The notes beneath the pieces are model-generated. The model ran no database searches. It was not told the origin of the DNA and worked only from the letters and a program-made list of their open reading frames with translations. Of a stretch of DNA of 24,607 nt, positions 12,289 through 24,463 are shown piece by piece. Numbering within the stretch: position 1 is the first letter of the stretch; every line of letters starts with the position of its first letter. The stretch comes from a virus, in the IMG/VR virus record IMGVR_UViG_3300021087_000074, positions 1 to 24,607 of that record. One strand, written 5' to 3'. The position numbers and the translations under genes were made by a program.

Positions 12289-12606
12289 GTGGATGAAGAA
12301 GAACTATTCGATGACGTTTGGGCCGATTGGATGGCCGAGCAGGGTTTAGACATTGAAGATGAAATCGAACAGACCTTACTTTCGAGTAAGGGCCTGTTGG
12401 ATATGGATGATGGCACCCATGCTCAATGGATAAACGGAACGTTAGGTGTTCTTCTTACATTTGATTTAGAGGAAGTTGATCAGCTTCTGGGTGCTTGGGA
12501 TGAAGCAGAAGACGGAAACATGGTTGCTCTTGCGACTCTGTTGCAATGGTTGAACGGGTTCAGCGCATTTCTTAGAGCTTGCACAGCGAACATTGAGGAT
12601 CTTTAG
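12289..12606 (+). CDS. Acidic 105-residue protein at end of late block
   Basis: 105 residues from GTG 12289, preceded by GGGAGGT with 7 nt spacing. Strongly acidic (MDEEELFDDVWADWMAEQGL at the start; many Asp, Glu and Trp), helical, with hydrophobic faces near the C-terminus (LLQWLNGFSAFLRACT). No signal peptide and no recognised family. It is the last gene of the rightward block: its TAG overlaps the palindrome at 12605-12625, and the leftward block ends only 21 nt further on. Acidic proteins in such places can be lysis modulators or DNA mimics; both are speculation. Confidence 0.6.
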   Translation: MDEEELFDDVWADWMAEQGLDIEDEIEQTLLSSKGLLDMDDGTHAQWINGTLGVLLTFDLEEVDQLLGAWDEAEDGNMVALATLLQWLNGFSAFLRACTANIEDL

Positions 12607-12625
12607 AAATATACGATATATTTTT
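12605..12625. promoter_or_regulatory. Palindrome family copy 1, at convergent junction; possible bidirectional terminator
   Basis: Core AAATATA-CGA-TATATTT at 12607-12623, identical to other copies, with one A-T and one G-T pair as flank. The first two bases are the end of the stop codon of the rightward gene. On the + strand the right arm runs into TTTTT then C, so it could act as a weak intrinsic terminator between convergent blocks. Unlike the other copies it is not upstream of a gene, and its outer stem is poor. Confidence 0.75.
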
Positions 12626-12627
12626 CG

Positions 12628-13110
12628 TTATTCCCTGGTTAGGTAATCCCTTATTCTGGGGTCTTCGAGGAGACATTCTCTGAGCTTTGTTGCAAGTTCA
12701 TCTCTGCGTCGAGCCAATGTGGTCTTAGGGATCTCCAAAACTATGGCTATAAAACGCAAAGAAAGGCCCACATCAACAAGCATGTGGTACAACCACTGCT
12801 CGTCAGATGTGAGCCTCATAAATGTTTTGTGGACTGCAAAGATAAGATCTTCTTGATCTTTCTCTCGTTCCTCTATTGATCTGAGTGGCTCCTCAAACGG
12901 AGCGGCACTCATCAAACTTTCTATTTCTGTTTCAGGAGTTGGATTGTAACGAGATTCTCTTTTGACGTTAAGTCGATGGATGTTATGGCCGTAACCTTTA
13001 CCTCTGTCTTTGCTGGTTACGTTTACCCAAGGACGTTGGGGGGAAAGAGAAGGAAAGTTTAATTCTCGAAGAGCGTTAAAGAGTTGTGCTCCCTCGCTCT
13101 CATCAACCAC
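12628..13110 (-). CDS. Sigma-region-4-like HTH protein, candidate late regulator
   Basis: 160 residues; GTG start at 13110 overlapping the upstream stop by 8 nt. Residues about 98-147 (LTSDEQWLYHML, then GLSLRFIAIVLEIPKTTLAR) form a helix-turn-helix of sigma70 region 4 type, with a Lys/Arg-rich recognition helix. The N-terminal 90 residues are acidic and hydrophilic, with no region 2 visible, so it is more likely an activator or an anti/co-sigma than a full sigma factor. It is the last gene of the leftward replication operon, a place that would delay its expression and suit a switch to late genes. The exact role is inferred. Confidence 0.6.
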   Translation of the reverse strand: MVDESEGAQLFNALRELNFPSLSPQRPWVNVTSKDRGKGYGHNIHRLNVKRESRYNPTPETEIESLMSAAPFEEPLRSIEEREKDQEDLIFAVHKTFMRLTSDEQWLYHMLVDVGLSLRFIAIVLEIPKTTLARRRDELATKLRECLLEDPRIRDYLTRE

Positions 13111-13570
13111 CGTTCCAATGCAGAAAATCTGAATGTATCGAGAAAAACAGTTTGTTGTTATCGAAGTTTCCTACGGGAATCTCTTCGGTGTTGATGATTG
13201 TCATTAGTTCTCGGTAAGTCAGATCTGCATAGTTTTGGCGTGAGCGTGACCAAATCCAAAACCACACATCCAATTCGGATGCGTCCCACCACTGTAGCGC
13301 ACGAATTTTGTTGAACTTAACTTTCAACATTTCGTCGGCACCCATTCCCATGACTTCTACAAGTCTGGGGAAACCCTTATTAGATATTTGTACATAGTCG
13401 GGGGTAGCAGCAAACGTTCCAGGTAACTGGTGTACCTCGAACCCGTCGGGTCGATCCCAACCGAATCGTTCCCAGTTTCGTTCTCGTTTCTCGAACTCGC
13501 CTTCAGCTTCTTTACCCATAGACATATATCGTTCTTTGTATGGGCGTTTATGGAATGGGGGGGCCATCAT
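13103..13570 (-). CDS. PD-(D/E)XK nuclease-like protein
   Basis: 155 residues; ATG 13570 has AGGGAGA 7 nt upstream and overlaps the RusA stop (ATGA). The middle holds TPDYVQ, a short gap, then RLVEVMGMG: the PD...(D/E)x layout of restriction-like nucleases, with an early Glu in GEFEKRERNWERF. The following segment (KIRALQWWDASELDVWFWIW) reads as the helix-strand that follows the active site in this fold. The usual catalytic Lys after the Glu is Met (EVM), so it may be inactive or use K at another place. It lies beside RusA and primase, so a role in recombination or genome processing is probable. Assignment is by motif pattern only. Confidence 0.5.
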   Translation of the reverse strand: MMAPPFHKRPYKERYMSMGKEAEGEFEKRERNWERFGWDRPDGFEVHQLPGTFAATPDYVQISNKGFPRLVEVMGMGADEMLKVKFNKIRALQWWDASELDVWFWIWSRSRQNYADLTYRELMTIINTEEIPVGNFDNNKLFFSIHSDFLHWNGG

Positions 13571-13905
13571 TTTTTTCTCCCTACTATTCGGTAGACCATG
13601 ATGTCGTCTTCGTAAGCGACACCGTTAAGGGCATCTTCCACTGCTTTCAGGTAGTTGGTTGTATCCCCTCTCAGCTTTGTTGAGGAAGCATCTAATTCCG
13701 TGATCGTTATTTGTGTGCGTTTAGCTGTGAAGACACAGCTAATAGAGATAGGTCCCTCAAATTTGGGGCCATCGTAATGATTCCGTATGTGTTCCTCGTG
13801 TTCCAGTGTGGACTTAGGGGTATACGTTCTTCCCCTTGCGAACCTTGGTCGCCCTTTGACCTTAGGTTTTCCTGGGACAGTGAACTTGTAAGAATGTTTA
13901 CGCAT
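13567..13905 (-). CDS. rusA: RusA-family Holliday junction resolvase
   Basis: 112 residues from ATG 13905, chosen because ACGAGGT precedes it and it overlaps the primase stop by 8 nt; an upstream in-frame ATG at 13938 would add 11 residues without such support. The N-terminus PGKPKVKGRPRF with GRTYTPK is the RusA opening. GDTTNYLKAVEDALNGVAYEDD (positions 80-101) holds the three conserved acidic positions D81, D91 and D100/D101. RusA cuts four-way junctions symmetrically as a dimer, resolving recombination or replication intermediates before packaging. Length equals the family norm of about 120. It follows primase and helicase in the same operon. Confidence 0.92.
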   Translation of the reverse strand: MRKHSYKFTVPGKPKVKGRPRFARGRTYTPKSTLEHEEHIRNHYDGPKFEGPISISCVFTAKRTQITITELDASSTKLRGDTTNYLKAVEDALNGVAYEDDIMVYRIVGRKK

Positions 13906-14821
13906 GGTACCTCGTTGTTTGGGATGCTTTAGTAACAATGTTCTCTAACTGTTTCTCTCGGTCTGGTCGCCCAACGAACTTTCCGACTCGTTCATCGAGG
14001 CGACGTAACCAGTCCATCGTGGCATCAGCGGAGTATTCCTGCCAAAGAAGACTGCTAGCGAAAGCGTACATAGCTTCTGACCTGTCTGAGAATTCTGTTT
14101 GTTCCCATATGTTCTTAGCGTTCCCCTTGAACTCTCCGTCTTCTCTGTTCCCTGGTTTGTACTGGGGAGCTTTCGGTTCTGTTGCTTCGTAGAAGCGAAG
14201 CAACCCACGAACCAACCCTGGTGGCGTTCTTTCTTCCCACGCTGCAGAAACAAACTCCTTAAGAGAAAAGAACGAGTCCGAATGATTGGGATCGTAAACC
14301 TCGTGCCGCCCAACGTTACGGTGATGGGGGTACGGCAAACGCAAACAGTTACCTAAAGCCCCTTCAGCTAAAGAAACTTGTTTGGGGTACACCTCGCGGG
14401 TCGGGACATCCACAACACGGCACGCTCCGATGAGCCCTTTACGGGCCACGTTCGCAGCCACAGGCTCAGTCAAATAAACCCATACGTGGTAGCCCTTGCT
14501 TTTAGATGTTTCTTTCCAGCTTCGGATACCTGTTTTAGCGAGAAGAGTTACCAGGTTGTCTGCGTGGACACTCGAATTTTCTCCGTCGTCAAGATCAACG
14601 GCACACCAATTCACCATCCACACACCATTCCGTTGCCATAACGGGTACACCCCAAGGGCTACATCGTTACTTAGATGCTGTTCGATGTGGCGAAAATACT
14701 TTTCTCCGTATCCCAAAGCGACGTTGCTGTCCTCTTCCAAGGGATGCACCCAGTGGGTGACATCAGCTAACGCTCCTCCTTGGTGGAGTAAAGCAAATCT
14801 TTCTGCAGTTATTCCACCCAT
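13898..14821 (-). CDS. Archaeo-eukaryotic-type primase (AEP/PrimPol-like)
   Basis: 307 residues; ATG 14821 is preceded by AGGAGA and overlaps the helicase stop by 13 nt. Catalytic hDhD motif AVDLDDG gives D76 and D78. SKSKGYHVWVYL (106-117) is the nucleotide-binding SxGxH-type motif with K109, H112. EVYPKQ and LGNCLRLPYPHHRN (about 143-168) match the third region of TOTE/viral AEP primases. The enzyme makes primers for lagging-strand synthesis and may also extend them. The C-terminal 100 residues are helical, perhaps a helicase-interacting part. Placed directly after the DnaB/RecA-like ATPase, forming a primase-helicase pair encoded as separate proteins. Confidence 0.85.
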   Translation of the reverse strand: MGGITAERFALLHQGGALADVTHWVHPLEEDSNVALGYGEKYFRHIEQHLSNDVALGVYPLWQRNGVWMVNWCAVDLDDGENSSVHADNLVTLLAKTGIRSWKETSKSKGYHVWVYLTEPVAANVARKGLIGACRVVDVPTREVYPKQVSLAEGALGNCLRLPYPHHRNVGRHEVYDPNHSDSFFSLKEFVSAAWEERTPPGLVRGLLRFYEATEPKAPQYKPGNREDGEFKGNAKNIWEQTEFSDRSEAMYAFASSLLWQEYSADATMDWLRRLDERVGKFVGRPDREKQLENIVTKASQTTRYHA

Positions 14822-15789
14822 CTGTTATCTCCTGGGATATCGCTCTCATAGTATTCTCGCACAAGTCCACATTCGGGGTCCATGTAGTAGTCAATGGGAG
14901 GGTCAGTGATTTGACATGGCGGACGTTTGTTCTTGCATAAGTCAAGTGACACTGAGACAGAGTGGACACGTCGTTCGTCGTTAGACAGTTTGGGGTCATC
15001 TCTTCTTCGGAACACGTTGAGTTGCAAGATTGCGTATTCGTCAGCATTGAATTTGCCGTCGTCCATTCCTCTAGAGGTGCCACGAGTGGAACCTTTCCCT
15101 GATTGGTGAACTAAACCAACGGGAAGGTTCTCTAACTCTGCCCATTCCTTTAACCCTTTAAGAACTGTTGATACGCCTTCGTATCCTGAAGCGCCAGGTA
15201 GCTGTTCAAGAAAATCGACCATCACGAACCGAGGTTTGTGTTGCCAATAGTCTTCGCATTCTCTCATGGCATCAGACATATTCTGAAATGAGAGGGCATT
15301 GGGGAAGATTTTTACTCTGTCAAGGAAACCAAACTTGGCTTCTTGTATTTCGTTTATGACAGTTTTGTCTTCGACGCGAAGAGCTTCTTCCACTTCAGCA
15401 AGATTTCGTTGATATAAGAGCGCATAAAGTTTGGATACAACCAGGATCTCGGGTTCATCAGGAGTGTATATCACTCCGTAGAAATCGGGGTCTTCTTGAA
15501 GGTTGCGTGCAATCGAAGAGAACAACACTGCGGATTTGCCGCTGTGTGCTCTGCCTGTGACGACGAGTACATCGCTGGGCCAGACGCCACGCATGCGGCT
15601 GTCTATGTCTTGAAGACCTAGGTGGAAACAGTCGTGGCTGCCTTTGGCGTACTCGACCCATCGGTCTACTGCCTGCGCTGTTGGCTTAAAGAATTTGTAC
15701 TGTGGCTCTCCCTCGGGGAGATCGATACCCGCAAGGCGGGCATCGATCTCCTCGGTGGTGAGGGCGACAGCTTCGTCACCCTCACCCAT
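14809..15789 (-). CDS. DnaB/RecA-fold replicative helicase-like ATPase
   Basis: 326 residues. Walker A GRAHSGKS (79-86), Walker B FVMVDFLEQ (D192), and a sensor-like strand VGLVHQSGKGST near 224-234 as in DnaB-type RecA cores. The N-terminal 65 residues are short, lacking the long DnaB primase-binding domain, so this is a compact single-core hexameric helicase or RecA-like ATPase. It would unwind DNA at the phage fork together with the adjacent primase. Its ATG overlaps the previous stop as TGATG. The usual DnaC-like loader is not visible. An alternative reading is a RecA-like recombination ATPase (Sak4 type), since the HQ motif and small size are shared, but the neighbouring primase favours helicase. 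Confidence 0.75.
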   Translation of the reverse strand: MGEGDEAVALTTEEIDARLAGIDLPEGEPQYKFFKPTAQAVDRWVEYAKGSHDCFHLGLQDIDSRMRGVWPSDVLVVTGRAHSGKSAVLFSSIARNLQEDPDFYGVIYTPDEPEILVVSKLYALLYQRNLAEVEEALRVEDKTVINEIQEAKFGFLDRVKIFPNALSFQNMSDAMRECEDYWQHKPRFVMVDFLEQLPGASGYEGVSTVLKGLKEWAELENLPVGLVHQSGKGSTRGTSRGMDDGKFNADEYAILQLNVFRRRDDPKLSNDERRVHSVSVSLDLCKNKRPPCQITDPPIDYYMDPECGLVREYYESDIPGDNRWVE

Positions 15790-16562
15790 CAGTTGCCCTT
15801 ATACGCAAACTCTTGGAGTTCCTCGCGTCGTCCAAGCCAGTCCCATTCGATGGCATCTGATTGAGTTTGCCCAGAAGCTTGGTCCCAGACTTTGAGAGGG
15901 ACATTGCTGTCTCCATCATTAACCCAGATACCAACATCACGAGAAGTTTCTACTCCGATGTGTTCCAAAGCATCCTTACTGATCGAGAAGTTAGGAAAGT
16001 TCTTTCCATTCTTCGTTACATCAGTAGATCCATCAGCGTGTTCCTTGACTTCGTACACCTTAAGTGTGCCTCCGTCGTTGGTGTCCCACTGATTCGGATG
16101 GAATGCCATCAAGTTGAAAGCAGCCTGCCGTTCGTCGGCACCTTTACCAGAGCAGAACTCTGTGCGCTTATAGGTACGCCCACTCATCTTCCCACCTGCA
16201 GGCGCAGCCTGCGGAGGAACAGGAGTAGCAGCTACTGAAGTTGCCGTCGGTCCTGCTGGAGCAGCGACACTTGCAGTCGCTTGCGGGGCGGGGCCTGCTT
16301 GACTATTTGAAGCCCTGGAAACGCCGCTTTTTAAGCGACGCATCACAACGCCGTCAGGAGAAAGATCTATCTCTTGACCTGCTTGTTTCAGCACCTCACT
16401 TTTCACTTGTTCAAACATGGAAGTTGCTTCAGCAATGATGCCGTCATCCCCCATTGATTCAGGAACACTCCTCTCTATTGAGAGCGAGTAGTCCGCTGTT
16501 TCGTATGGAGCTTCACTCACTTTTTGAGTGAAACTAACTGTCACTTTTGCTGTGTCAGTCAT
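15789..16562 (-). CDS. Unknown replication-operon protein, possible ssDNA-binding factor
   Basis: 257 residues from ATG 16562, chosen for AGGGAGAAAGGT just upstream; reading further 5' would add 39 residues that overlap the nuclease gene. Residues 1-65 are beta/alpha with a KVTVSFTQKV strand and a conserved-looking SLSIERSVPE. Residues about 85-120 are an Ala/Pro/Thr linker (APAGPTATSVAATPVPPQ). The C-terminal 140 residues contain several aromatic-rich strands (NLMAFHPNQWDT, LKVYEVK, VPLKVWDQASGQ). It lies between a RecB-like nuclease and the helicase, where phages often carry an ssDNA-binding or recombination protein. No such domain is recognised directly. Confidence 0.6.
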   Translation of the reverse strand: MTDTAKVTVSFTQKVSEAPYETADYSLSIERSVPESMGDDGIIAEATSMFEQVKSEVLKQAGQEIDLSPDGVVMRRLKSGVSRASNSQAGPAPQATASVAAPAGPTATSVAATPVPPQAAPAGGKMSGRTYKRTEFCSGKGADERQAAFNLMAFHPNQWDTNDGGTLKVYEVKEHADGSTDVTKNGKNFPNFSISKDALEHIGVETSRDVGIWVNDGDSNVPLKVWDQASGQTQSDAIEWDWLGRREELQEFAYKGN

Positions 16563-16576
16563 GTTTACCTTTCTCC

Positions 16577-17344
16577 CTACCAGGGATTTTCTCCGAGGTG
16601 TTTCCCTCGGCATTCGCCTGCCTGCCAGACAGGACACCAGTTCGGAGAGCAATGCCAACCTGACCAATTTTGCGGCCATGTCTTAGCATCCGACATAATC
16701 GTCGGAACCATCGACCAGCAAAGCTCAACGAATGCGTTCTTATGTTCTTCGGTACGTTCAATCTCGATTACCTGAAGAGTTCCATCAACCATCACTCCAA
16801 GATTGAAGTCGGTTGCCTCCAAAGCCCAACAGTAAGCATGAGATTGTATATCCCAACGCTTGTACTCCCAAGCCAGATACTCCCTACTGGGATTCTTCCA
16901 ATCCCAAATGACACCTGACTTATCGATCCAGTCCACCGTACCTGTTAGGACTAAACGAACGTTGTCTCTCCTACCGATCTCTTTCTCAAAGGGAGTCTCC
17001 ACTCCCACTGGATCAAGTTCAGGGAACAACTCTTCATACCAGCATGTCAAGTTAGCTCGAACCGTGTCAACCAAGGGTTCGTAGTGGTGACGCCACACCT
17101 CAACAGCCGACGAGTAACTCACAATAAATTCTTCTGCGACCTCAATAATTTCTGATAGCTGTGGGCGGGGCATCCCCGCCATCATCAGCCGACCTGCGTA
17201 CTCGATTGCCCCATGTACAGCGTTGCCTCTCAAAAAGTCTGATGACTCTTTCTGGGTGACAAGACCAAGCCTGTCTTGCCTTGCCTGCTCTGGGCATTTA
17301 AGAAATGTGTTAATCCAACTCTGTCGTAAACGTATCTCAATCAT
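16577..17344 (-). CDS. Cas4/RecB-like PD-(D/E)XK exonuclease with putative Fe-S cluster
   Basis: 255 residues. RecB-family landmarks: SWINTFLKCPEQ with C17, G..VHGA (H44), GTVDWID (D138), VIWDWKN (D148 and K150 as D-x-K) and QSHAYCW (Q167, Y171). Three C-terminal Cys, C232, C237 and C245, with C17 form the four-Cys pattern of Fe-S nucleases such as Cas4 and AddB. Family members are 5'-3' or 3'-5' DNA exonucleases that supply ssDNA for recombination. It heads the replication operon behind a hairpin leader, with AGGGAGA immediately ahead of ATG 17344. Its stop overlaps the ribosome-binding site of the next gene. No CRISPR array or Cas1/2 is nearby, so a phage recombination exonuclease is more likely than spacer acquisition. 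Confidence 0.85.
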   Translation of the reverse strand: MIEIRLRQSWINTFLKCPEQARQDRLGLVTQKESSDFLRGNAVHGAIEYAGRLMMAGMPRPQLSEIIEVAEEFIVSYSSAVEVWRHHYEPLVDTVRANLTCWYEELFPELDPVGVETPFEKEIGRRDNVRLVLTGTVDWIDKSGVIWDWKNPSREYLAWEYKRWDIQSHAYCWALEATDFNLGVMVDGTLQVIEIERTEEHKNAFVELCWSMVPTIMSDAKTWPQNWSGWHCSPNWCPVWQAGECRGKHLGENPW

Positions 17345-17347
17345 TTT

Positions 17348-17399
17348 TCTCCCTACTCGGTTGGGACCGCCCCGCAGGGAGATACAGGACGGCCCAACC
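17348..17399 (-). promoter_or_regulatory. Leader hairpin with anti-Shine-Dalgarno loop before the nuclease gene
   Basis: Read on the - strand, GGUUGGGCCGUCC (17399-17387) pairs with GGGCGG-U-CCCAACC (17372-17359), 13 pairs with one bulged U and one G-U. The 14-nt loop contains UCUCCCU (17382-17376), exactly complementary to the ribosome-binding site AGGGAGA (17354-17348) of the nuclease gene, 4 nt beyond the stem. The loop could therefore mask the start in a pseudoknot-like or alternative fold. The short 4-nt linker makes a full pseudoknot strained. The pairing is visible; regulation is inference. Confidence 0.5.
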
Positions 17400-17410
17400 T
17401 AAACCTTGAT

Positions 17411-17435
17411 GCAGAAATATATCGTATATTTCTGC
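17411..17435. promoter_or_regulatory. Palindrome family copy 2, ahead of replication operon
   Basis: Perfect 11-bp arms around a 3-nt centre: GCAGAAATATA-TCG-TATATTTCTGC. The 17-bp core is the family sequence in flipped orientation (centre TCG rather than CGA), and flanks GCA/TGC keep pairing. It ends 66 nt upstream of ATG 17344, between the terminator-like hairpin and the leader hairpin. Candidate operator, promoter element or RNA processing hairpin. Confidence 0.85.
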
Positions 17436-17453
17436 TCCCTCTAAACATTATGT

Positions 17454-17488
17454 AAATGGGGGGAACCCTTGGGGGGTTCCCCCCATTT
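17454..17488. terminator. Strong GC hairpin, terminator-like
   Basis: Perfect 15-bp stem: AAATGGGGGGAACCC (17454-17468), a 5-nt loop (17469-17473), then GGGTTCCCCCCATTT (17474-17488). The A-T ends make it look bidirectional, though the U-tract is only short. It lies 22 nt after the stop of the leftward HTH gene, so it probably ends the upstream early transcription unit before the replication operon begins. An attenuator role is also possible. Confidence 0.75.
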
Positions 17489-17509
17489 TAACATGGATAC
17501 AACCAGAGA

Positions 17510-17806
17510 TCAAACAGCGCTCTCTCCCAGAGGTGGTTCGATCTTGTGTAAACGTTCAAATTGCGCCCGTTCAACCATGTCATGTGCTCTCTGCCGAGAC
17601 AACCCGATGCTACGTCCAACTCGTGCTTGGTTTCCCTCTGCTTGTACAGCGTCCAGCAATGCGTGCCTACGCATGTAGCTGGTTAGCTTCAACTTCTCTC
17701 GTAACTGGCGGTCAAAATCGTTTAGTCGTTCCAAAGCCGCCAGTGGTTCATATGAATCGACACATTCAGTTAGCGTCCTGTGTAGCTGAGTTAGGTACAG
17801 GGCCAT
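17510..17806 (-). CDS. Small HTH protein
   Basis: 98 residues from ATG 17806, which overlaps the previous stop as TAATG and has AAGGAG 11 nt upstream; a GTG 12 nt earlier would abut the ribosome-binding site and is less likely. Residues about 47-82 form a helix-turn-helix (RRHALLDAVQAEGNQARVGR, then SIGLSRQRAHDMV) with an Arg/Gln-rich recognition helix. The first 45 residues are helical and may dimerise. It is last in its early transcription unit, just before a strong terminator-like hairpin. A DNA-binding regulator, possibly of the palindrome family or adjacent promoters; which site it binds cannot be told. Confidence 0.65.
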   Translation of the reverse strand: MALYLTQLHRTLTECVDSYEPLAALERLNDFDRQLREKLKLTSYMRRHALLDAVQAEGNQARVGRSIGLSRQRAHDMVERAQFERLHKIEPPLGESAV

Positions 17807-17988
17807 TATTCGCAACACTCCTTCTCTTCTTCGTTACTTGTCCAGGTCTGAGCGGCTTGCTCAGCTTCGGCTCTTGTCTTAAAGAACTCTCTGTACTGGC
17901 CGTCTTGCAACACGACGTATCCAGATGTGCGTAAGCCCGCTCCCAATGGGACAACAGTCCCTTTGATCTCGTATTTAGATGGATTCAT
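17806..17988 (-). CDS. Small conserved-looking protein, unknown
   Basis: 60 residues from ATG 17988, which overlaps the preceding gene's end by 14 nt, the same register as the two upstream junctions here. Starts at 18045 (ATG) or 18066 (GTG) would extend 19 or 26 residues but overlap the neighbour by 70 nt or more. Sequence: a compact beta/alpha unit (KYEIKGTVVPLGAGLRTSGY, then EFFKTRAEAEQAAQTW) resembling small phage proteins with an amphipathic helix, and an acidic end with CC. Its stop is coupled to the next start (TAATG). No function assigned. Confidence 0.55.
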   Translation of the reverse strand: MNPSKYEIKGTVVPLGAGLRTSGYVVLQDGQYREFFKTRAEAEQAAQTWTSNEEEKECCE

Positions 17989-18205
17989 GTTGGGCTCTAG
18001 CTTCCAGAATTTGTTCTCGGGTATAAGCGTCTTGTAGCGGCGCATGCTTTTGTCTTCTTGGTCCACGTTTCTTCTCTGTTTTCTCCTTGTTGTATTGGTT
18101 CCAGGCGGAACGACATCCTAGACATCTGCATCCGTTCCCATAACAGGAAGCGGAAGGTTTCCCTTTGCAGTTGTATCCAGGTCGTCTTGTTCTATTGGTC
18201 GCCAT
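17975..18205 (-). CDS. Small CxCxxC zinc protein 1
   Basis: 76 residues; ATG 18205 follows GAGGGA by 6 nt and overlaps the previous stop by 14 nt. Cysteines C13, C21, C26, C28 and C31 form YNCKG...SCYGNGCRCLGCRSAWNQYN, a CxCxxC motif followed by an aromatic Asn/Tyr helix. A basic region follows (KEKTEKKRGPRRQKHAP). The motif is shared with the protein at 18404-18619, so the two are paralogues, and it is typical of short phage proteins with a (H)G...GC.C..C...W..YN signature. Probably a metal-stabilised nucleic-acid binding protein; partner unknown. Confidence 0.65.
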   Translation of the reverse strand: MATNRTRRPGYNCKGKPSASCYGNGCRCLGCRSAWNQYNKEKTEKKRGPRRQKHAPLQDAYTREQILEARAQHESI

Positions 18206-18401: not shown

Positions 18402-18403
18402 AT

Positions 18404-18619
18404 TTATGTCCTTCTCCCGTTGTGGTTTACTTGTGATCTTTTTGTGGTCTGTCTTATAACTTCCCCTTTGTGCTTAATGCCCGCAAGTTCGTTCCAAGCA
18501 AGCCAGCGGTCGGTGCATTTACTGCAACGGCATTTCCCTAATGCGTAGGTAGCTATGTACCCATGTTTAGTGAAGTCGCTTGAGGTCCAACGAGTTGTGA
18601 AGCTGTCGTTGTAACTCAT
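18404..18619 (-). CDS. Small CxCxxC zinc protein 2
   Basis: 71 residues. ATG 18619 has a perfect GGAGGA ribosome-binding site inside the 3' end of the upstream HNH gene, overlapping it by 53 nt. KHGYIATYALGKCRCSKCTDRWLAWNE (H19, C30, C32, C35) is the same HG...C.C..C...W..WN signature as in the protein at 17975-18205. The basic C-terminus (KRSQVNHNGRRT) suggests nucleic-acid contact. Three Cys plus one His are enough for one zinc. Similar short proteins are common in actinobacteriophages; their role is unknown. Confidence 0.65.
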   Translation of the reverse strand: MSYNDSFTTRWTSSDFTKHGYIATYALGKCRCSKCTDRWLAWNELAGIKHKGEVIRQTTKRSQVNHNGRRT

Positions 18620-19208
18620 GTTTGTCCTCCTTTAATTGTTTGATTTCTTCATCTTTTCTACCCAGGACAACGGAATGCGTACTTGCTTCGAGATCGTTTG
18701 CTGCCATAGTTCTCTCCTGTAAATGCTTGATATTGCAGCATGCTGTTACGTGGCAAGTGTGATGTATGTGCATCCCCTCCCTAATAGAACCGTAATGGTA
18801 AACCCAGACCATACGATGTGTCAAGGCGTTGCGTCTTGTGCCAACTCGTTCAGCAACAACCTTGCTGTTGACCGCACCGTATCCACCCTCTTGGGTGAAG
18901 CCTTGCCAAAGGAAACAAACCGTCCCGTCATCACGAACAAAGTCACCAAACCTGATGTAACTAAACGCAGGATTCAGATACGTTTCGACCCGTTCCTCAA
19001 ACGTGAGCTTCGCCATGATCCGCATGGGAATGTCAGTTCGCGGCGATCCGTACTTCTCGAAGTTACGTTTATGTCCGTGACATAAGGCAATGATTCCATC
19101 TCTGGAACCAATGCCGTCGTAAGGGAAAGAGGTTCGACGTTCCCTTGGGCATTGTTGTCCGCCAGGAAGTATGGCCCAGCAAGCTGTTCTTCCTTTCCTA
19201 GGTTTCAT
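18567..19208 (-). CDS. HNH homing-type endonuclease
   Basis: 213 residues; start ATG 19208 overlaps the previous stop (ATGA). N-terminal zinc-like cysteines C10, C20, C43 with CHGH. An AP2/HNH_3-style segment GGYGAV..... then LTHRMVWVYHYGSI (129-142) precedes the His-Me finger HIHHTCHVTACCNIKHLQER (147-166) and ..AAN: catalytic H149/H150, N159 and H162. The C-terminus (DEEIKQLKEDKHELQRQLHN) is a coiled coil. Such enzymes nick DNA and are often selfish homing genes, but also help packaging or exclusion. It sits in an early cluster next to a second, different HNH gene. There is no sign of an intron around it. Confidence 0.85.
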   Translation of the reverse strand: MKPRKGRTACWAILPGGQQCPRERRTSFPYDGIGSRDGIIALCHGHKRNFEKYGSPRTDIPMRIMAKLTFEERVETYLNPAFSYIRFGDFVRDDGTVCFLWQGFTQEGGYGAVNSKVVAERVGTRRNALTHRMVWVYHYGSIREGMHIHHTCHVTACCNIKHLQERTMAANDLEASTHSVVLGRKDEEIKQLKEDKHELQRQLHNSLDLKRLH

Positions 19209-19819
19209 GCGACTATCCGATCCTTAGGTGGTGTCCATTCTTCGTGAAGCAACTTGTCACACTTGGATGAGTTGCATGAGAGACATGCAGGTACGAGGTT
19301 GTCCATCATGTGATCTCCTCCCTTGGAGAGCGGGATGACATGGTCGCCTATCGAAGTCTTCGCAGTGATGGGTGCATCACAGTAAGAGCAGGTGTTTGGA
19401 TCGAAGCCATGATGTAGCCAGTGGGCGTGTAGTTCTTTCATCGTGTGACCATCACATGGGGCGTTGGCTAGGAGTGCCCGTCGTCGCTGGTAATCCTCGT
19501 ATCTGGAAACTGATGCAGATTGACGGTACTTCTTGGCCGATGCCCTGACCTTCTCTGGGTTGGCCTTCTCCCATTCGGCAATGCGTACTCTCATTTTGTC
19601 ATACTTCTCTGGTGGCAGATTTTCCCTGTAAATCTTTTGTTTTTCTTTAATGAAATCCTTACGGTTGATGTAGTCCGTAGCACAATCGACTTTTCGACAC
19701 TCTTTGCATTTGGGACGTATGCCATTTGATGATGGGGACTTAGGCTTCTGACGGTGGTAATCCGAAAACGGTTTAACAATTCCACACCCAGAGCATTTCT
19801 TATATCTAATTGTTTCCAT
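19205..19819 (-). CDS. HNH endonuclease with N-terminal zinc finger
   Basis: 204 residues from ATG 19819, whose A closes the preceding TAA (TAATG) with GGGAGGT upstream; a longer frame to 19891 would overlap the lysozyme-like gene by 70 nt. C9, C12, C38 and C41 make a four-Cys finger (KKCSGCG...PKCKECRK) typical of phage HNH enzymes. Residues 55-120 are a charged helical linker. The nuclease core at 144-186 reads CSYCDAP...IGDHVIPLSKGG, then DNLVPACLSCNSSK, with paired zinc CxxC motifs, catalytic H160 and N174. Function: site-specific nick or double-strand cut, host or phage DNA. Clear assignment. Confidence 0.92.
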   Translation of the reverse strand: METIRYKKCSGCGIVKPFSDYHRQKPKSPSSNGIRPKCKECRKVDCATDYINRKDFIKEKQKIYRENLPPEKYDKMRVRIAEWEKANPEKVRASAKKYRQSASVSRYEDYQRRRALLANAPCDGHTMKELHAHWLHHGFDPNTCSYCDAPITAKTSIGDHVIPLSKGGDHMMDNLVPACLSCNSSKCDKLLHEEWTPPKDRIVA

Positions 19820-20154
19820 TACTTGTACCTCCCACAAGTCCATAAGGCCCACCCTCCACGGGTGTTCTCGTGTATGTAGTGCGCCATCCATGTTGACTGC
19901 ACCACTTCGTATCGTTTCGGCCAGTGCCTTTCAAACACATGGCCCCAATAATGTTCGTTTATTTGAAACAAGCCGTGATCTACCCCGTTATAGGCACGGG
20001 GATTGTGTAGCGACTCGCACCACGCCACCCCCAGTGCCCTCACGCAGTCGTCTACGAAGAATTCGCATACGATCTCAGGAATCTCAGGGTTAGGGGGCTC
20101 ATGGTTCACCGAAGCGAAGTCCAGTATTGCCCAGATAGCTAACCAAACATTCAT
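19819..20154 (-). CDS. Exported lysozyme-like / transglycosylase-fold protein
   Basis: 111 residues; ATG 20154 follows AAAGGGAGA. The N-terminus (MNVWLAIWAILDFASV) is a short hydrophobic signal or membrane anchor. Residues 40-110 look like a lysozyme/SLT fold: ALGVAWCESLHNPRAYNG with catalytic Glu47, HGLFQINEHYW (60-70), then STWMAHYIH and GGWALWTCG. The GLFQIN motif is characteristic of goose-type/SLT and Rpf-like muralytic domains. Expected reaction: cleavage of the MurNAc-GlcNAc glycan bond outside the cytoplasm. Unusual in that it is in the early leftward block, headed by a palindrome, not with the lysis genes. Candidate role: wall remodelling, superinfection interference or an exported enzyme. 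Confidence 0.75.
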   Translation of the reverse strand: MNVWLAIWAILDFASVNHEPPNPEIPEIVCEFFVDDCVRALGVAWCESLHNPRAYNGVDHGLFQINEHYWGHVFERHWPKRYEVVQSTWMAHYIHENTRGGWALWTCGRYK

Positions 20155-20172
20155 GCTGTCTCCCTTTGGCGG

Positions 20173-20197
20173 GCGGAAATATACGATATATTTCCGC
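20173..20197. promoter_or_regulatory. Palindrome family copy 3
   Basis: Perfect 11-bp arms, GCGGAAATATA-CGA-TATATTTCCGC; core identical to copies 1, 4 and 6 with flanks GCG/CGC. It ends 18 nt before the lysozyme-like gene start and its outer base is part of the stop codon of the upstream leftward gene (20197-20199). No convincing -35/-10 pair was found upstream of it. Confidence 0.85.
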
Positions 20198-20409
20198 TAC
20201 TCATTGAGTCCCTCAATCTCAGGATCTTCAACCAGCATGTCCAACTGATACTGGATAGCACGGTCAATAATCCCATCGAAGCTCGGAACCATCTCCAAAA
20301 AGTTTTCACCCCTCAGATACTGCTCCCTCAACTCATCCAAGATCAGGACAGTGAACAAAGCAAACGCATAAGCTGAGCGTTCTAGCTCTGTGTACTCAGA
20401 GTCACCCAT
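20197..20409 (-). CDS. Small helical acidic protein, unknown
   Basis: 70 residues from ATG 20409, which overlaps the previous stop by 8 nt (ATGGGTGA); an ATG-less extension to 20451 would lie mainly inside the neighbour. Mostly helical, with a hydrophobic stretch ERSAYAFALFTVLILDELRE (about 10-29) that may be buried or membrane-facing but is flanked by charges, and an acidic tail. No cysteines or recognised domain. Its stop codon forms the edge of palindrome copy 3. Conserved-type small phage protein of unknown function. Confidence 0.55.
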   Translation of the reverse strand: MGDSEYTELERSAYAFALFTVLILDELREQYLRGENFLEMVPSFDGIIDRAIQYQLDMLVEDPEIEGLNE

Positions 20410-20599
20410 AATATGTCTCCGCTTCTGTCTCGATCCAGACACGGGCACCACATCGGTCAGGCTCTACAGGCTGAACGATGTAGCAAGGTCCATCCACATA
20501 CACCCTTCGATGATGTGTCGATCCCTTGTATGTGCGGTCAATGATGGCAGCTTCCCCTTTCTTGAGCTTCTGTTGGTGGACATGGATAACGTGCTTCAT
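20402..20599 (-). CDS. Small beta-rich protein, unknown
   Basis: 65 residues. ATG 20599 is preferred over the adjacent GTG 20602 because it overlaps the upstream TGA as TGATG; AAGGGAGAG lies just upstream. The sequence alternates short strands (AAIIDRTYKG, RRVYVDGPCYIVQPVE, GARVWIET) like a small SH3-type or OB-type barrel, with a His-rich N-terminus (KHVIHVHQQK) and two Cys. No family recognised. Coupled on both sides in the operon with the Gp88-like gene upstream. Confidence 0.55.
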   Translation of the reverse strand: MKHVIHVHQQKLKKGEAAIIDRTYKGSTHHRRVYVDGPCYIVQPVEPDRCGARVWIETEAETYYG

Positions 20600-21390
20600 C
20601 ACTCTCCCTTTCTATTGGTGGAAGCAAATCGGACATTGTTGCGACCGTAGATACACATGCCACACTCCACACATGCGCCACGACCAAACACCCCGTCGTC
20701 GTCCCAGACGACCATCGGAGTTTTACCTGTTAGCTCAGGACACTTAGGTCCTTTACGACGATGCGGAAACTTGGCAGCTAACTCTTCAGTCTCCTCCCAA
20801 GTGTCAGCACAGAACGCCAGCATCGGCTCGGACAGCAACGCTTTCTCTGTCCGAACCGCATCCAGCACGTTGTCCTTATCAACAGATAAGTACACGGCCA
20901 GATTGCTGACACCCATAAGCAGGGGGGCTGCTTTGAAGGTTCTTGTATACAACCAGAACTGAAACTCAGGGAAGTCTTCTGCTACTCGTTTGATCGCTTG
21001 AGCGAACGCAGCGGACGGGATGTCACCATCCCAGAAGTGCCTAAACACCCAGTCATCCTCAGGAATCTTCGCTCGCACATATTCGATAGAGCATTCGCTG
21101 AGCATGGCACTGAGCATGGCATGCAGTGTGTCTACATCGTTGAGATGAGGAGACACGACATCCCAGTTCTCTTGCACCAAGTTACGGACGCCTGGAAAGT
21201 TCTGAAGTGCCAACGCATAACACGCATCAGCGCACCATTCGGTGTGCCCAGGACAGGAGACAAGGGCGGGAAGCCCGAAAGTGTTCTTGACCTTCGGGGT
21301 CCCCTCGTTAATGCCGTTGCCTTTTTTCCTGACCAGAGGCGCAACTTTACGGTCACTACTTAAGCGTGGCAACCCTACGTTGACAATCAT
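20599..21390 (-). CDS. Gp88-like cysteine-rich phage protein
   Basis: 263 residues; ATG 21390 overlaps the previous stop (ATGA). NTFGLPALVSCPGHTEWCAD (36-55) followed by ACYA gives C46, C53 and C57; the C-terminus has CVECGMC (C240, C243, C246). This FGLPA..SCPG...C...CYA opening and closing Cys cluster are the signature of the mycobacteriophage Gp88 family (gene product 88). The six Cys suggest metal or Fe-S binding, but biochemical function is unknown. Between them are several strands with HFWDGDIPSA and WLYTRT motifs. It is in the early operon, next to small genes of unknown role. Confidence 0.8.
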   Translation of the reverse strand: MIVNVGLPRLSSDRKVAPLVRKKGNGINEGTPKVKNTFGLPALVSCPGHTEWCADACYALALQNFPGVRNLVQENWDVVSPHLNDVDTLHAMLSAMLSECSIEYVRAKIPEDDWVFRHFWDGDIPSAAFAQAIKRVAEDFPEFQFWLYTRTFKAAPLLMGVSNLAVYLSVDKDNVLDAVRTEKALLSEPMLAFCADTWEETEELAAKFPHRRKGPKCPELTGKTPMVVWDDDGVFGRGACVECGMCIYGRNNVRFASTNRKGE

Positions 21391-21875
21391 GATTCCAGTT
21401 GCCTCATCGTGTCAGACATGATCTCGAACATTGACTTAAAAGCACTGAGTACTTCGTCACATTTGCATGATCCTGCAGCAATGTCCCGTGGCCCTTCCAC
21501 ATACTCTTCGATCATGTGTTTGGCGGCATCAGCGAAAGCTTTGCCTATGCCACACCGAGACTCACTGCTTGTGATAACGAAGTCTCTTAAATGGTTTTCG
21601 ATTCGGGTGTCAATGATGTCGGGCAGGTCGTGAGTAACTACAAGCCCCCAGGACTCATAGCCCCTCATTACTTCTTTCTGGACAATCTCATCCCATTGCC
21701 TGAAGTTCCAGATGCCGTCACTGACAGTGTCACCCAGGTCGATGTTGTCTAGCCCTTCGCTTATCTGATCACCGAAATCGTGGTCGTCTACATAGTTCTC
21801 TACAACCCCTCCGATTTTCTCTTCGATGCAATCGAACAGTCCATCGTCATCTATTTCTACTGTAAATTCAGCCAT
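21387..21875 (-). CDS. Acidic early protein, unknown
   Basis: 162 residues from ATG 21875, chosen because ACAAGGGAGAAACC lies immediately upstream; a frame start at 21923 would run through the leader. The N-terminal 55 residues are very acidic (VENYVDDHDFGDQI, DNIDLGDTVSDG), the rest is helical with scattered Cys near the end (SRCGIG, SCKCDEV). No known domain. It is the first gene after palindrome copy 4. Acidity could hint at DNA mimicry or protein binding, but that is speculative. Its stop is coupled to the Gp88-like gene. Confidence 0.6.
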   Translation of the reverse strand: MAEFTVEIDDDGLFDCIEEKIGGVVENYVDDHDFGDQISEGLDNIDLGDTVSDGIWNFRQWDEIVQKEVMRGYESWGLVVTHDLPDIIDTRIENHLRDFVITSSESRCGIGKAFADAAKHMIEEYVEGPRDIAAGSCKCDEVLSAFKSMFEIMSDTMRQLES

Positions 21876-21923
21876 TGGTTTCTCCCTTGTTTGGCCGTGG
21901 ATGCGCTTGAGCACATCAGCCAA

Positions 21924-21950
21924 GCACGAAATATACGATATATTTCGTGC
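21924..21950. promoter_or_regulatory. Palindrome family copy 4 (longest stem)
   Basis: Perfect 12-bp arms around CGA: outer GCAC/GTGC enclosing GAAATATA-CGA-TATATTTC. The flank differs from all other copies yet stays complementary. It ends 48 nt before ATG 21875, between that gene and the DUF932 stop. The following leader contains ACAAGGGAGA. No clear sigma70 promoter is visible upstream of it. Confidence 0.88.
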
Positions 21951-21962
21951 CTGACGGGATGC

Positions 21963-22949
21963 TCAATCAGATGTAACTAACTGTCCGATTGCCTTCTCGG
22001 TGAGAGGCATAGATCCGAAGAGCAGACGATCAAGATGCCGTCCCTCTTTAGATCCACCACGCACCTGCTGGACATGCTGCTCGTAGCCTTGTACGGCCAT
22101 GAGTGCACCCCATTTGGTTTCTCGGATACCACCGTCTAGATCATCATGCCAGTAGCGAGCGATAATGTTGGAGAACGTCTTGTCCCAAGACGTTTGACTC
22201 CTACCCTCATCTTCTGGTCTGGTACCTAATAGATTCCCAGTCAGTTGACTGAAATCACCGACGGCATAGCTCTCGTTAATAAGCCGTTCTACCTGTGCAT
22301 CGAGATGTTGTTGCAGCTTGGCTGCCTCAACAAACGAGTCGATAGCCCACTCCAGATAGCTACTGGCATTACGAGTGTGCTTAACCGACCACGAAGCCTT
22401 CACTCCCAAGATGTAGGCAGCGAATGTGTTCGCACACACCACCACTCCGAGAGTCGGACGGCCTGATGCGGCAATCGTCCCATCGTGAGCATCAGTCAAC
22501 GTGAAGTACTTATGGATCTTGCTGTATCCCTCAATATCCAGTGGTTCACCCATCTCCAATGTTACATATGCCTTACGACCGTGATTCAGGGTGCCCTTGG
22601 ATGCGACACCAGGAGAGAAACCCTGTTCTATCAGTTTCTCTACAGCGGCATCCATCTCATCATATTGAGTGATGCCCCTGCCTTCTGTCACGCCCACATT
22701 TAGTGGGAACCCATTGTCGTCACGACGAATGACGAAGCCATTATTTACATCCCATGCAGAGACAGGTGTGTAAATAATCTCACCGTCAATCATGTCTTGG
22801 ACATACAGTTCTTGACGTTCGGCTTGGAATTGCCACGGATTCTCTGCGTACTCCTCTATGGAGAGCAGATGCCCATAGGTGATCCCTTTACCATGCCAAG
22901 CTGTTCGAGCGTAGACCGCTAGGTCATCGCCGTATATTTCTGCACTCAT
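21963..22949 (-). CDS. DUF932 phage/plasmid-like protein
   Basis: 328 residues; ATG 22949 follows ACACAACAAGGGAGA. The N-terminus has the family hallmark ARTAWHGKGI (TAWHG near residues 16-20). Downstream features typical of DUF932/TIGR03299 are VRRDD.G..L.VG, EKLIEQGF, KGTLNHGRKAYV, FTLTDAHDGTIAASGRPTLG, VVCANTFAAYI and SWSVKHTRNA. Length is in the usual 300-400 range. The function is unknown; family members occur in phages and plasmids, often near replication or anti-restriction genes. It has its own promoter and palindrome in the 5' leader, so it is a transcription unit start. Confident family call. Confidence 0.9.
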   Translation of the reverse strand: MSAEIYGDDLAVYARTAWHGKGITYGHLLSIEEYAENPWQFQAERQELYVQDMIDGEIIYTPVSAWDVNNGFVIRRDDNGFPLNVGVTEGRGITQYDEMDAAVEKLIEQGFSPGVASKGTLNHGRKAYVTLEMGEPLDIEGYSKIHKYFTLTDAHDGTIAASGRPTLGVVVCANTFAAYILGVKASWSVKHTRNASSYLEWAIDSFVEAAKLQQHLDAQVERLINESYAVGDFSQLTGNLLGTRPEDEGRSQTSWDKTFSNIIARYWHDDLDGGIRETKWGALMAVQGYEQHVQQVRGGSKEGRHLDRLLFGSMPLTEKAIGQLVTSD

Positions 22950-22983
22950 ATTTTTCTCCCTTGTTGTGTTGATATGAGAATTT

Positions 22984-23009
22984 TTGGAAATATATTGTAT
23001 ATTTTTGAA
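22984..23009. promoter_or_regulatory. Palindrome family copy 5 (diverged)
   Basis: Core AAATATA-TTG-TATATTT (22988-23004): arms intact, centre changed from CGA to TTG. Flanks are not Watson-Crick but would pair with G-T wobbles and two T-A pairs on the + strand. Located 38 nt upstream of the DUF932 start and 30 nt downstream of a strong -10 box, so it falls in the 5' untranslated leader. Confidence 0.7.
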
Positions 23010-23034
23010 GTGACCCTATTTGCACCTCGACATA

Positions 23035-23063
23035 AGTATAGGGCCAGTACTTTCTTATGTCAA
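23035..23063 (-). promoter_or_regulatory. Sigma70-type promoter for the DUF932 unit
   Basis: On the - strand TTGACA (23063-23058), a 17-nt spacer, then TATACT (23040-23035). The -35 is consensus and the -10 has five of six consensus bases. It begins right after the stop of the upstream leftward gene. Expected start site is near 23028, placing palindrome copy 5 about 20-40 nt into the transcript. The sequence TTGACATAAG is shared with the promoter at 24436-24463. Confidence 0.75.
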
Positions 23064-23267
23064 CTACTCGTTGACAAGGTCATGAAAGGAGTGACGAGTC
23101 AAGACAGGCCACTCGTGTTTCTGCCGCACCTTCAACGAAGGCGCAAAATCTCGCACTGCCTCATCCATGCCACACGGGGTGCAGATATACATATCTGTAA
23201 CCCGACTCAAAGCATTCTGAGCTTGCTCAATCTCCAACTCAGTCACCATGCATCTAGGACATCTCAT
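23064..23267 (-). CDS. Small zinc-ribbon protein
   Basis: 67 residues from ATG 23267, which overlaps the previous stop (ATGA) and follows a GGGGGGTG stretch. Two CxxC knuckles, MRCPRC at the start and YICTPCGMDEAVRDF at residues about 27-41, enclose an acidic helix-strand segment. This CPRC...CxPCGxDEA pattern recurs in small early phage proteins. Probably a structural zinc site; a role in binding nucleic acid or host protein is possible. Its stop lies one base from the -35 of the DUF932 promoter, so it ends the first early unit. Confidence 0.65.
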   Translation of the reverse strand: MRCPRCMVTELEIEQAQNALSRVTDMYICTPCGMDEAVRDFAPSLKVRQKHEWPVLTRHSFHDLVNE

Positions 23268-23431
23268 GTTTTCACCCCCCCCACATTTGCTACCCACACG
23301 TTCACTAGTTCTTGATAGAGAACCGAGTCACGGCGGTTACGGTCGTGGTTTTCCTCCAAGTATTCGAGAATCTCAAGCACTTGAATTAGTTGGTGAAGGC
23401 TTATCTCTACAGCGGAATCCATCTCAGTCAT
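23264..23431 (-). CDS. Small helical protein, unknown
   Basis: 55 residues from ATG 23431, which overlaps the previous stop by 8 nt (ATGACTGA); a more upstream ATG at 23458 would sit inside the neighbour. A central Leu/Ile/Glu helix (ISLHQLIQVLEILEYLEENH) suggests a coiled coil or helical bundle. No cysteines and no recognised motif. The overlapping junctions on both sides argue that it is translated. Function unknown. Confidence 0.5.
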   Translation of the reverse strand: MTEMDSAVEISLHQLIQVLEILEYLEENHDRNRRDSVLYQELVNVWVANVGGVKT

Positions 23432-23678
23432 AGTCGTATCCAAACAATTCATCCCCACACGGAGGACACATATAGTACGAATAGTTAGCAGGCCGACCTA
23501 ACTGGCGCACAAACTGAGAATGCAGAATGATCTCCCGCTCATCAGCAGTCTTATCAGGCCACACAGTTTGAGCCAGAGAACCGTTGACCCACTTCTCAAC
23601 TTCAGCCGATCGCACTGAAGTGAAATAGTCGTTACCGCATTTACCACGACAACGAGCCCGAGCTTCAATAGATGACAT
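23424..23678 (-). CDS. Small zinc-binding-type protein
   Basis: 84 residues from ATG 23678, preferred because AAAGGGAGTG precedes it; an earlier ATG at 23741 would lie deep in the next gene. It has C..C near the start (ARCRGKCGNDYF) and CPPCGDELFGYDYD at the end, a split zinc-ribbon like the neighbouring 23064-23267 protein (both end in C.PCG.DE). Middle part charged and helical. Likely a diverged relative of that protein. Role unknown. Confidence 0.6.
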   Translation of the reverse strand: MSSIEARARCRGKCGNDYFTSVRSAEVEKWVNGSLAQTVWPDKTADEREIILHSQFVRQLGRPANYSYYMCPPCGDELFGYDYD

Positions 23679-23679
23679 A

Positions 23680-23850
23680 TCACACTCCCTTTCTTCGTAA
23701 AGAGTCCAGCATCGCTTGCCAGTACTCAGGACCACGGGCACGTTCTCGTGCCCAATATGATTGGCTGATCAAATAGCAGCCATGACAAAACATGATCACG
23801 CACAAAACAAGCAGCGGACCAGGATACATAGGAACATCAGGCATCGACAT
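23680..23850 (-). CDS. Small single-pass membrane protein
   Basis: 56 residues from ATG 23850 (AGGAGG 6 nt upstream); a frame start at 24003 is far upstream and overlaps two genes. Residues about 10-29 (GPLLVLCVIMFCHGCYLISQ) form one hydrophobic membrane segment with three Cys, followed by a basic and aromatic cytoplasmic-type tail (SYWARERARGPEYWQAML, RRKG). Topology suggests N-out, C-in. Candidate for superinfection exclusion or host-membrane interference, as is common for early membrane proteins, but not proven. Confidence 0.6.
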   Translation of the reverse strand: MSMPDVPMYPGPLLVLCVIMFCHGCYLISQSYWARERARGPEYWQAMLDSLRRKGV

Positions 23851-24010
23851 TGCCTGCCTCCTGTAATTCTTGAACGAACAATTCCAGAGCAGATTCGTCG
23901 CCACGTTGAGCCCAACGTGCTTTCTCCTCGGGCAACTGCACCCACTTGGGTCTATTAGCCATCCACCACTCATGGAACTGATAAGGCTGGGGATCTGCAT
24001 CACGGTCCAT
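23837..24010 (-). CDS. Small acidic protein of 57 residues
   Basis: ATG 24010 shares its A with the preceding TAA (TAATG), and TGA ends at 23837; it overlaps the membrane-protein start by 14 nt. Sequence starts MDRDADPQPYQFHEWWMANR, then PKWVQLPEEKARWAQRGDES and an acidic helix ALELFVQELQEAGNVDA. Trp/Glu/Asp-rich and soluble. It fills what would otherwise be a 160-nt gap in a tightly packed operon, and the coupling at both ends supports it. Unrecognised function. Confidence 0.6.
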   Translation of the reverse strand: MDRDADPQPYQFHEWWMANRPKWVQLPEEKARWAQRGDESALELFVQELQEAGNVDA

Positions 24011-24333
24011 TAGCCAACCTCCAAATGTTCGGAACGCTCAAATTCGACCTGAGCTTGAATCGAATCGTTATGGATGCTGACCAGATCCAGCAACACCTCA
24101 GAAGCAGTCAAGCCTCCCAAGCGCTCCTGGTTTATTGCCAGCCAACGGCGAGCAACCTCATCAAGAACTATTTGCAGATGCTCGCACACACGCTTCGCCT
24201 CCCAAGATGCGGATTCGTTAAACGTTCCGATCTCTGGCAGCAGGGCACTGATTCTGTTTGTGAGAACGTCTACCGACGCTTGAAGCTGCCCGTTGCTTAG
24301 CTCACTCATGTTTTCTATATCTAGGTAGGACAC
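24010..24333 (-). CDS. First leftward early gene: helical protein, unknown
   Basis: 107 residues from GTG 24333, chosen because AACAAGGGAGATGGAAA precedes it; ATG at 24309 lacks an SD. Long helices (LQASVDVLTNRISALLPEIG and RVCEHLQIVLDEVARRWLAI) alternate with acidic stretches. No Cys cluster, HTH or enzyme motif. It heads the first early transcription unit, 41 nt after palindrome copy 6 and about 100 nt after a sigma70-type promoter. Thus it is probably among the first phage genes expressed after infection; host takeover is a guess. Confidence 0.6.
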   Translation of the reverse strand: MSYLDIENMSELSNGQLQASVDVLTNRISALLPEIGTFNESASWEAKRVCEHLQIVLDEVARRWLAINQERLGGLTASEVLLDLVSIHNDSIQAQVEFERSEHLEVG

Positions 24334-24374
24334 TTTCCATCTCCCTTGTTGTATCCAATAACTATTTAGTATCC

Positions 24375-24399
24375 CGAGAAATATACGATATATTTCTCG
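24375..24399. promoter_or_regulatory. Palindrome family copy 6
   Basis: Perfect 11-bp arms, CGAGAAATATA-CGA-TATATTTCTCG: core identical to copies 1, 3 and 4, flanks CGA/TCG. It lies 36 nt downstream of the -10 of the leftward promoter, inside the expected leader, and 41 nt upstream of the first early gene. Confidence 0.88.
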
Positions 24400-24435: not shown

Positions 24436-24463
24436 AGTCTATCACCTCAGATCCTTATGTCAA
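24436..24463 (-). promoter_or_regulatory. Sigma70-type promoter for the first early unit
   Basis: On the - strand TTGACA (24463-24458), a 16-nt spacer, then TAGACT (24441-24436). The -35 is perfect, the -10 four of six, and the same TTGACATAAG string starts the DUF932 promoter. Start site predicted near 24429. It would drive genes 24333 to 23064 leftward. Confidence 0.65.

Follow-up and report, generated by a model that had tools for sequence, protein, structure and literature searches.

Palindromes dispersed in a marine phage genome are probably operators of a new regulator family with swapped specificities

What do short palindromes do when they recur without change between the early genes of one phage, and what recognises them? 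The question is raised by IMG/VR record IMGVR_UViG_3300021087_000074, a marine phage sequence that we analysed whole, over its 24,607 bases (the window), and in which the palindrome AAATATA-N3-TATATTT stands at six places. A first-pass annotation, made from the sequence alone, took these sites for a phage-wide early control element, either an operator for a dimer or a hairpin in RNA or single-stranded DNA. We find that many relatives of this phage carry palindrome families of their own with other cores, and that the cores co-vary with one phage gene. The comparison makes it likely that the palindromes are dispersed double-stranded DNA operators, probably elongation roadblocks, of a phage regulator whose specificity changes fast.

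Six identical palindromes lie between genes

The core is present exactly six times in the window, each time with 0 mismatches, where dinucleotide shuffles lead one to expect 0.04 copies; a scan of the window at up to two mismatches found nothing beyond the six exact sites. The cores start at 12607, 17415, 20177, 21929, 22988 and 24379 (the first-pass start positions include the outer arms and differ accordingly). All six are intergenic. Noncoding DNA makes up 5% of the window overall, and in its early half only 6.7% of the positions would leave a 17-mer entirely between genes, giving p of about 1e-7. Random placement relative to genes, the outcome that the first-pass annotation had set against its own proposal, was thus not seen. 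As it had described, five of the six sites lie upstream of leftward genes; the sixth, at 12607, lies between the 3' ends of the convergent genes 12289-12606 (+) and 12628-13110 (-). The putative operators, to which no strand is assigned, are as follows.

12605..12627, no strand: putative operator copy 1; core 12607-12623, AAATATACGATATATTT; at a junction of convergent genes; no outer arm pairing
17411..17435, no strand: putative operator copy 2; core 17415-17431; arms GCAG/CTGC; precedes the leftward PD-(D/E)XK nuclease gene 16577-17344
20173..20197, no strand: putative operator copy 3; core 20177-20193; arms GCGG/CCGC; ATG of 19819-20154 (-) 22 nucleotides (nt) downstream
21924..21950, no strand: putative operator copy 4; core 21929-21945; arms GCACG/CGTGC; precedes leftward gene 21387-21875, likely start ATG at 21875
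22986..23006, no strand: putative operator copy 5; core 22988-23004, AAATATATTGTATATTT; no outer arm pairing; DUF932 gene 21963-22949 (-) 39 nt downstream
24375..24399, no strand: putative operator copy 6; core 24379-24395; arms CGAG/CTCG; precedes leftward gene 24010-24333

The right half of the window is a leftward early module with RusA, an AEP-type primase, a DnaB-like helicase, the PD-(D/E)XK nuclease, HNH proteins, GP88 and DUF932, and the left half holds rightward genes. The sign of the GC skew flips near 12600, at the convergent junction that holds operator copy 1. An Rfam search gave no match and a transfer RNA search found none.

Related phages carry palindromes with replaced cores

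A helicase search gathered 80 marine relatives at 73-100% identity. A search for a close isolate found none, and among annotated records MW202803 comes nearest, with 26% identity for the helicase and 54% for the terminase of a relative. The first-pass annotation had proposed a search of related genomes for the 17-base-pair (bp) core. That sequence is in almost none of the 80 relatives; what recurs is the arrangement, in that a search for repeated palindromes that assumed no sequence gave many of them a family of their own. Besides AAATATA, the lineage cores include TTATAAC, TTCTAAC, CTTACTG, GTTACTA, GACCTAG, TCTAGAA, GTCGCG, GGCGCGC, GTGTAAC and TGTGGAA. In the six genomes tested a family numbers 5-10 sites, whereas Markov shuffles never gave more than 2. 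Relative genomes hold 4-13 copies, which are palindromes of 15-19 bp with half-sites of 6-8 bp.

Homologous intergenic regions reveal how the cores differ: promoter-like sequences and ribosome-binding sites (RBS) are conserved, and the palindrome between them is exchanged. At the place of operator copy 2 the core is swapped in G003, G004 and G001, and L137, which carries the window's core AAATATA, has the same core with another centre. At the junction of copy 1, sites with other cores stand at 13028 in L055 and 13063 in L056. The first-pass view that the core is conserved as sequence and the flanks only as pairing therefore holds within the window's genome only; between phages, the core itself is replaced.

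In some lineages sites also lie outside the early genes. Some TGTGGAA sites (in the G022/G020 records, contigs L073 and L067) are intragenic and encode VEIPQ, even inside the candidate regulator gene described below. At the convergent junction equivalent to 12607, L005, L006, L013, L016 and L019 have a palindrome of 23-27 bp such as TGTAAAAATATAAATTATATTTTTACA. The distant GenBank relative MW202803.1 (L220) has its own family, TGTTTC-N5-GAAACA, in nine exact and five one-mismatch copies, with examples at 198, 1127, 2262, 5157, 6795 and 8675.

Cores vary with one early gene beside the small terminase

Which phage protein might read such sites? A scan for the small terminase gene (terS), together with a reading of whole records of relatives, led to the outermost early gene, a hypervariable gene of 215-340 residues next to terS. 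Where contigs span the region, this gene is flanked by the genome's own palindromes. Operator similarity follows the similarity of this candidate regulator (Mantel r 0.63, 0/5000 permutations, with related genomes counted and no correction for phylogeny), and half-site identity is 0.88 for related regulators and 0.41 for unrelated ones. L032 and G007 share most early proteins at 91-100% identity and have GACCTAG and CTTACTG sites, respectively; among their sizeable early proteins the regulator alone has no counterpart, and a few smaller genes and a sigma-like protein (63%) also vary. Consistent with prediction, a protein search with the G003 regulator retrieved a 69%-identical regulator whose contig holds five TTCTAAC sites, as G003 does. 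The regulators of G022 and L166 are 31% identical, and both genomes have TGTGGAA. By comparison among genomes, the pairing of putative operators with a cognate regulator is well supported.

The L218 regulator (3447-4160) is chimeric, with a G003-like N-terminal part and an L137-like C-terminus, which is direct evidence of domain exchange. It adjoins an upstream TTTATAAC site, one base off G003's TTTCTAAC. This chimera points to the N-terminal domain as the probable seat of specificity.

In L137 the regulator lies at 7976-8716, beside an AAATATA core, and its surroundings align with the end of our record:

24520..24607, - strand: right end of the record; aligns with intergenic DNA of L137 that immediately precedes the 3' end of its regulator gene

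From this alignment, the window's own regulator is predicted to lie shortly beyond 24607. A protein search with the L137 regulator returned L137 itself, a near-duplicate of it and nothing else. The exact core, sought in 2.9 million viral contigs, turned up in L001, whose helicase is identical to the window's, and otherwise as single, apparently chance copies in apparently unrelated contigs, so that the window's own regulator was not recovered. Many clade contigs (L133-L212) stop next to the regulator, no more than a few hundred bases from the small terminase gene; these may be assembly breaks at the hypervariable gene, or a genome end.

Sites lie downstream of promoter-like sequences

We counted placement for 85 sites in 12 genomes, calling promoters by match to a sigma-70-like consensus only. 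On the early strand, the -10 ends of promoter-like sequences cluster 25-74 bp upstream of the sites (two bins with 18 hits between them, where every other bin has 0-2), and on the opposite strand those two bins have none. An RBS with a start codon follows within 45 nt downstream at 30 sites, compared with 4 in a control window, and other sites lie just upstream of, or within, terminator-like hairpins. The window's sites stand 22-70 nt from start codons, with these promoter-like sequences before copies 5, 6 and 2:

23035..23063, - strand: promoter-like TTGACA-17-TATACT; -10 ends 30 bp before operator copy 5; consensus match only
24436..24463, - strand: promoter-like TTGACA-16-TAGACT with TG; -10 ends 40 bp before operator copy 6; consensus match only
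17485..17513, - strand: promoter-like TTGATC-17-TAAAAT with TG; -10 ends 53 bp before operator copy 2, with a GC-rich hairpin between; consensus match only

Downstream of promoters, before the RBS and at terminators, the sites are positioned in a way that would suit a block to elongation rather than to the promoter. A promoter-overlap reading, with TATATT as a -10 hexamer inside the palindrome, was judged secondary: most other cores contain no such hexamer, and better promoters lie further upstream. The hairpin before copy 2 (17460-17490) is near-perfect, GC-rich and followed by ATTTT; it is kept in relatives and is a possible attenuator.

Some sites have paired outer arms

Outward from the core, contiguous pairs number 4 at 17415, 20177 and 24379 and 5 at 21929, and there is no outward arm pairing at 12607 and 22988. 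The innermost pair (G-C) is common to all four armed sites, which leaves a variable part of 3-4 pairs; the perfectly paired, differing arms reported by the first-pass annotation are thus borne out. Their pairing also holds up statistically. In a set of 110 sites from 15 genomes, the bases at outward positions 2 to 5 pair above right-flank shuffles within genomes (p 0.005 or less), and at least 3 contiguous outer pairs occur at 34/110 sites, against 15.0 in shuffles (maximum 25 in 2000), a count somewhat inflated because some homologous sites were counted in several lineages. The window's group often has arms, the TGTGGAA group seldom. The extra pairing, real as it is, depends on the site, and it may reflect a hairpin, a wider symmetric contact or mutation within palindromes. 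A terminator-only reading was rejected, since none of the four armed window sites (0/4) has a T-run.

Alternative explanations

The first-pass annotation had named two helix-turn-helix (HTH) proteins of the window as possible binders:

12628..13110, - strand: sigma-factor-like HTH protein; sigma-like by PHROGs, E 0.0013; rejected as specificity determinant
17510..17818, - strand: small HTH-like protein; rejected as specificity determinant

Both proteins are conserved in the clade, their genes lie in the early half, and that of the sigma-like protein abuts one site, so the palindromes might be operators of one of the two, or phage promoters for the sigma-like one. We regard this as very improbable. 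Genomes with different cores (L007/L011; L030/L032) have HTH segments that are identical or nearly so, with essentially identical recognition helices; between L032 and G007 the 17510 homologue is 97% identical although the cores differ, and the sigma-like homologue differs in its N-terminal part. The sites, moreover, are preceded by standard sigma-70-like promoters. RNA hairpins formed in the leaders of early transcripts or between their cistrons are a less remote idea that we nonetheless hold unlikely. A phage RNA-binding protein would recognise them, as in nut/boxB antitermination or to control translation. The sites are transcribed, their position downstream of promoters fits N/nut antitermination, their variable arms pair above expectation, and four window sites fold strongly as RNA (-11.6 to -22 kcal/mol). 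In some families, too, an asymmetric centre has a single orientation relative to early transcription (13/13 in G022, 7/7 in G008, 10/11 in G020). However, two of the six window sites fold poorly, at -0.9 (22988) and -3.1 kcal/mol, and the best fold at 12607 is not the palindrome. In the window (TCG 4, CGA 1) and in G026 (AGT 5, ACT 4) the centre is found in either orientation, and arms are missing from most TGTGGAA sites. The hairpin alternative offered by the first-pass annotation is weakened by the two poor folds, and keeps what support the four strong ones give.

For the arms only, a mutational origin is possible but doubtful. Template switching in palindromes would symmetrize neighbouring bases with no selection for a hairpin, an account that is compatible with operators. 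The arms vary by site and lineage and are present at about a third of sites; most have no T-run (24/31 armed sites), and at the homologous place upstream of 24010 they differ yet pair (CGAG/CTCG, CCAA/TTGG, CCAAT/ATTGG). Yet some clearly belong to terminator stems with T-runs (L055 1075, L056 1008), and recurrence at the same homologous places in several lineages suggests function. Multi-copy palindromes can also serve as sites for host proteins or act at the level of DNA, in replication, packaging or modification, unrelated to early transcription, and the lineages with sites outside early genes would agree with this. We give such roles hardly any credence: the cores differ in closely related phages and track a phage gene, and placement relative to promoter and RBS is strong.

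Several observations weigh against operators of a phage regulator. The excess of paired variable arms is not something that a plain operator requires, and a palindrome family was not clear by our method in G014, G019 and L066. The correlation of operators with regulators carries the phylogenetic limit given above. The L180 and L196 regulators are 81% identical but their sites differ somewhat (TGTACAC versus TGACCAC), possibly a specificity change in progress. The window's own regulator gene lies outside the window, which ends near its expected beginning. AlphaFold models of two regulator groups are of low confidence (58.6 and 57.6); in the second, the mean predicted local distance difference test score of 57.6 rises to about 77 in the N-terminal domain. 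Searches with this weak model by Foldseek, VIA-align and BFVD gave no meaningful match, a result that indicates neither a new nor a known fold. Neither the model nor the fold searches lend independent weight to the predicted DNA binding by the regulator.

Discussion

We infer the following scheme for binding, dimerization, roadblock and timing. The palindromes would be double-stranded DNA operators, probably bound by a symmetric dimer of the regulator encoded in the outermost early gene, adjoining terS. They would act inside transcription units: shortly after early promoters, before the RBS, between convergent genes and at terminators. Because the sites lie inside transcription units, the bound regulator would most likely be a roadblock or stop for RNA polymerase on the early genes and on its own gene, much as at a stoperator. 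The early control element and dimer operator of the first-pass annotation thus survive in placement, in promoter and RBS context and in recurrence across the clade, and give way in the idea of a conserved core: regulator and full operator set appear to change specificity together between lineages. A tyrosine integrase (PF00589), a large serine recombinase (PF07508) and ParA (PF13614) were sought in 17 records of up to 57 kb, possibly incomplete, and none was found. Since no integrase or ParA was found, the likeliest use would be shut-off or tuning of early genes in lytic growth, and lysogeny in these phages is unlikely.

The closest systems by function are the stoperators of cluster A mycobacteriophages and SPBRE/MrpR of SP-beta. 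Cluster A phages (L5, Bxb1, TipsytheTRex) have asymmetric 13-bp stoperators whose orientation is correlated with transcription; they are temperate, with integrase or parABS, and their repressor has HTH and Stoperator domains and, when bound, halts elongation (PMC9283540, PMC6550527). Like stoperators, the sites described here are many, short and dispersed in one genome, in promoters or short intergenic gaps within transcription units. They have one candidate cognate regulator, their lineage-specific consensus shifts with it, some lineages, though not the window or G026, show an orientation bias, and the placement would be compatible with a halt to elongation. Unlike stoperators, they are palindromes and not asymmetric 13-mers, and their cores are wholly different between close relatives. 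The regulator, besides, has no recognisable domain (no significant Pfam or PHROGs match for six candidates), and integrase and ParA were not found. In SP-beta, the phage-encoded repressor MrpR has a tyrosine-recombinase fold rather than a classical HTH and a 15-bp motif, SPBRE, that is likewise a dispersed intergenic repeat in one phage genome; no family with swapped specificities is described (PMC10516654). In the records searched here there was no PF00589 match, although a diverged fold could be missed, and the weak model gave no fold match.

The first-pass annotation had likened the layout to cluster K SAS and ESAS. The likeness holds for repeats before many early genes, near the RBS, to which ESAS adds an inverted repeat. 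SAS, however, is an asymmetric 13-mer of the GGGATAGGAGCCC type that lies 3-7 bp from start codons and may act on translation, and ESAS has imperfect 17-bp arms with a variable spacer, similar across the cluster (PMC3203893). The element here is a palindrome, and in the window it stands farther from the starts.

Operators resembling those of phage lambda are another point of comparison. Lambda-type CI/Cro operators are 17-bp palindromes for a dimer, with the regulator gene beside the early/late divergence and autoregulatory placement. The present sites share the symmetry and co-vary with one phage gene, for which binding is predicted; unlike lambda operators, they are scattered through many units, and most of them follow a promoter.

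These comparisons suggest a DNA-binding family not recognised before, and control of the stoperator kind may extend to phages that lack an integrase. Tentatively, in a proposal that could well prove wrong, we suggest that the regulators form a new phage family with a domain outside Pfam and PHROGs, whose specificity is exchanged by recombination and rapid divergence while 4-13 operators are rewritten in place. Regulatory evolution has yet to explain how a regulator changes specificity when many sites must follow. The present clade supplies at least a dozen answers in closely related phages, whose homologous sites can be aligned and among whose regulators one is a recombinant between two specificities. 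If a new regulator family does operate in phages without lysogeny genes, it would imply a specificity race between co-infecting relatives.

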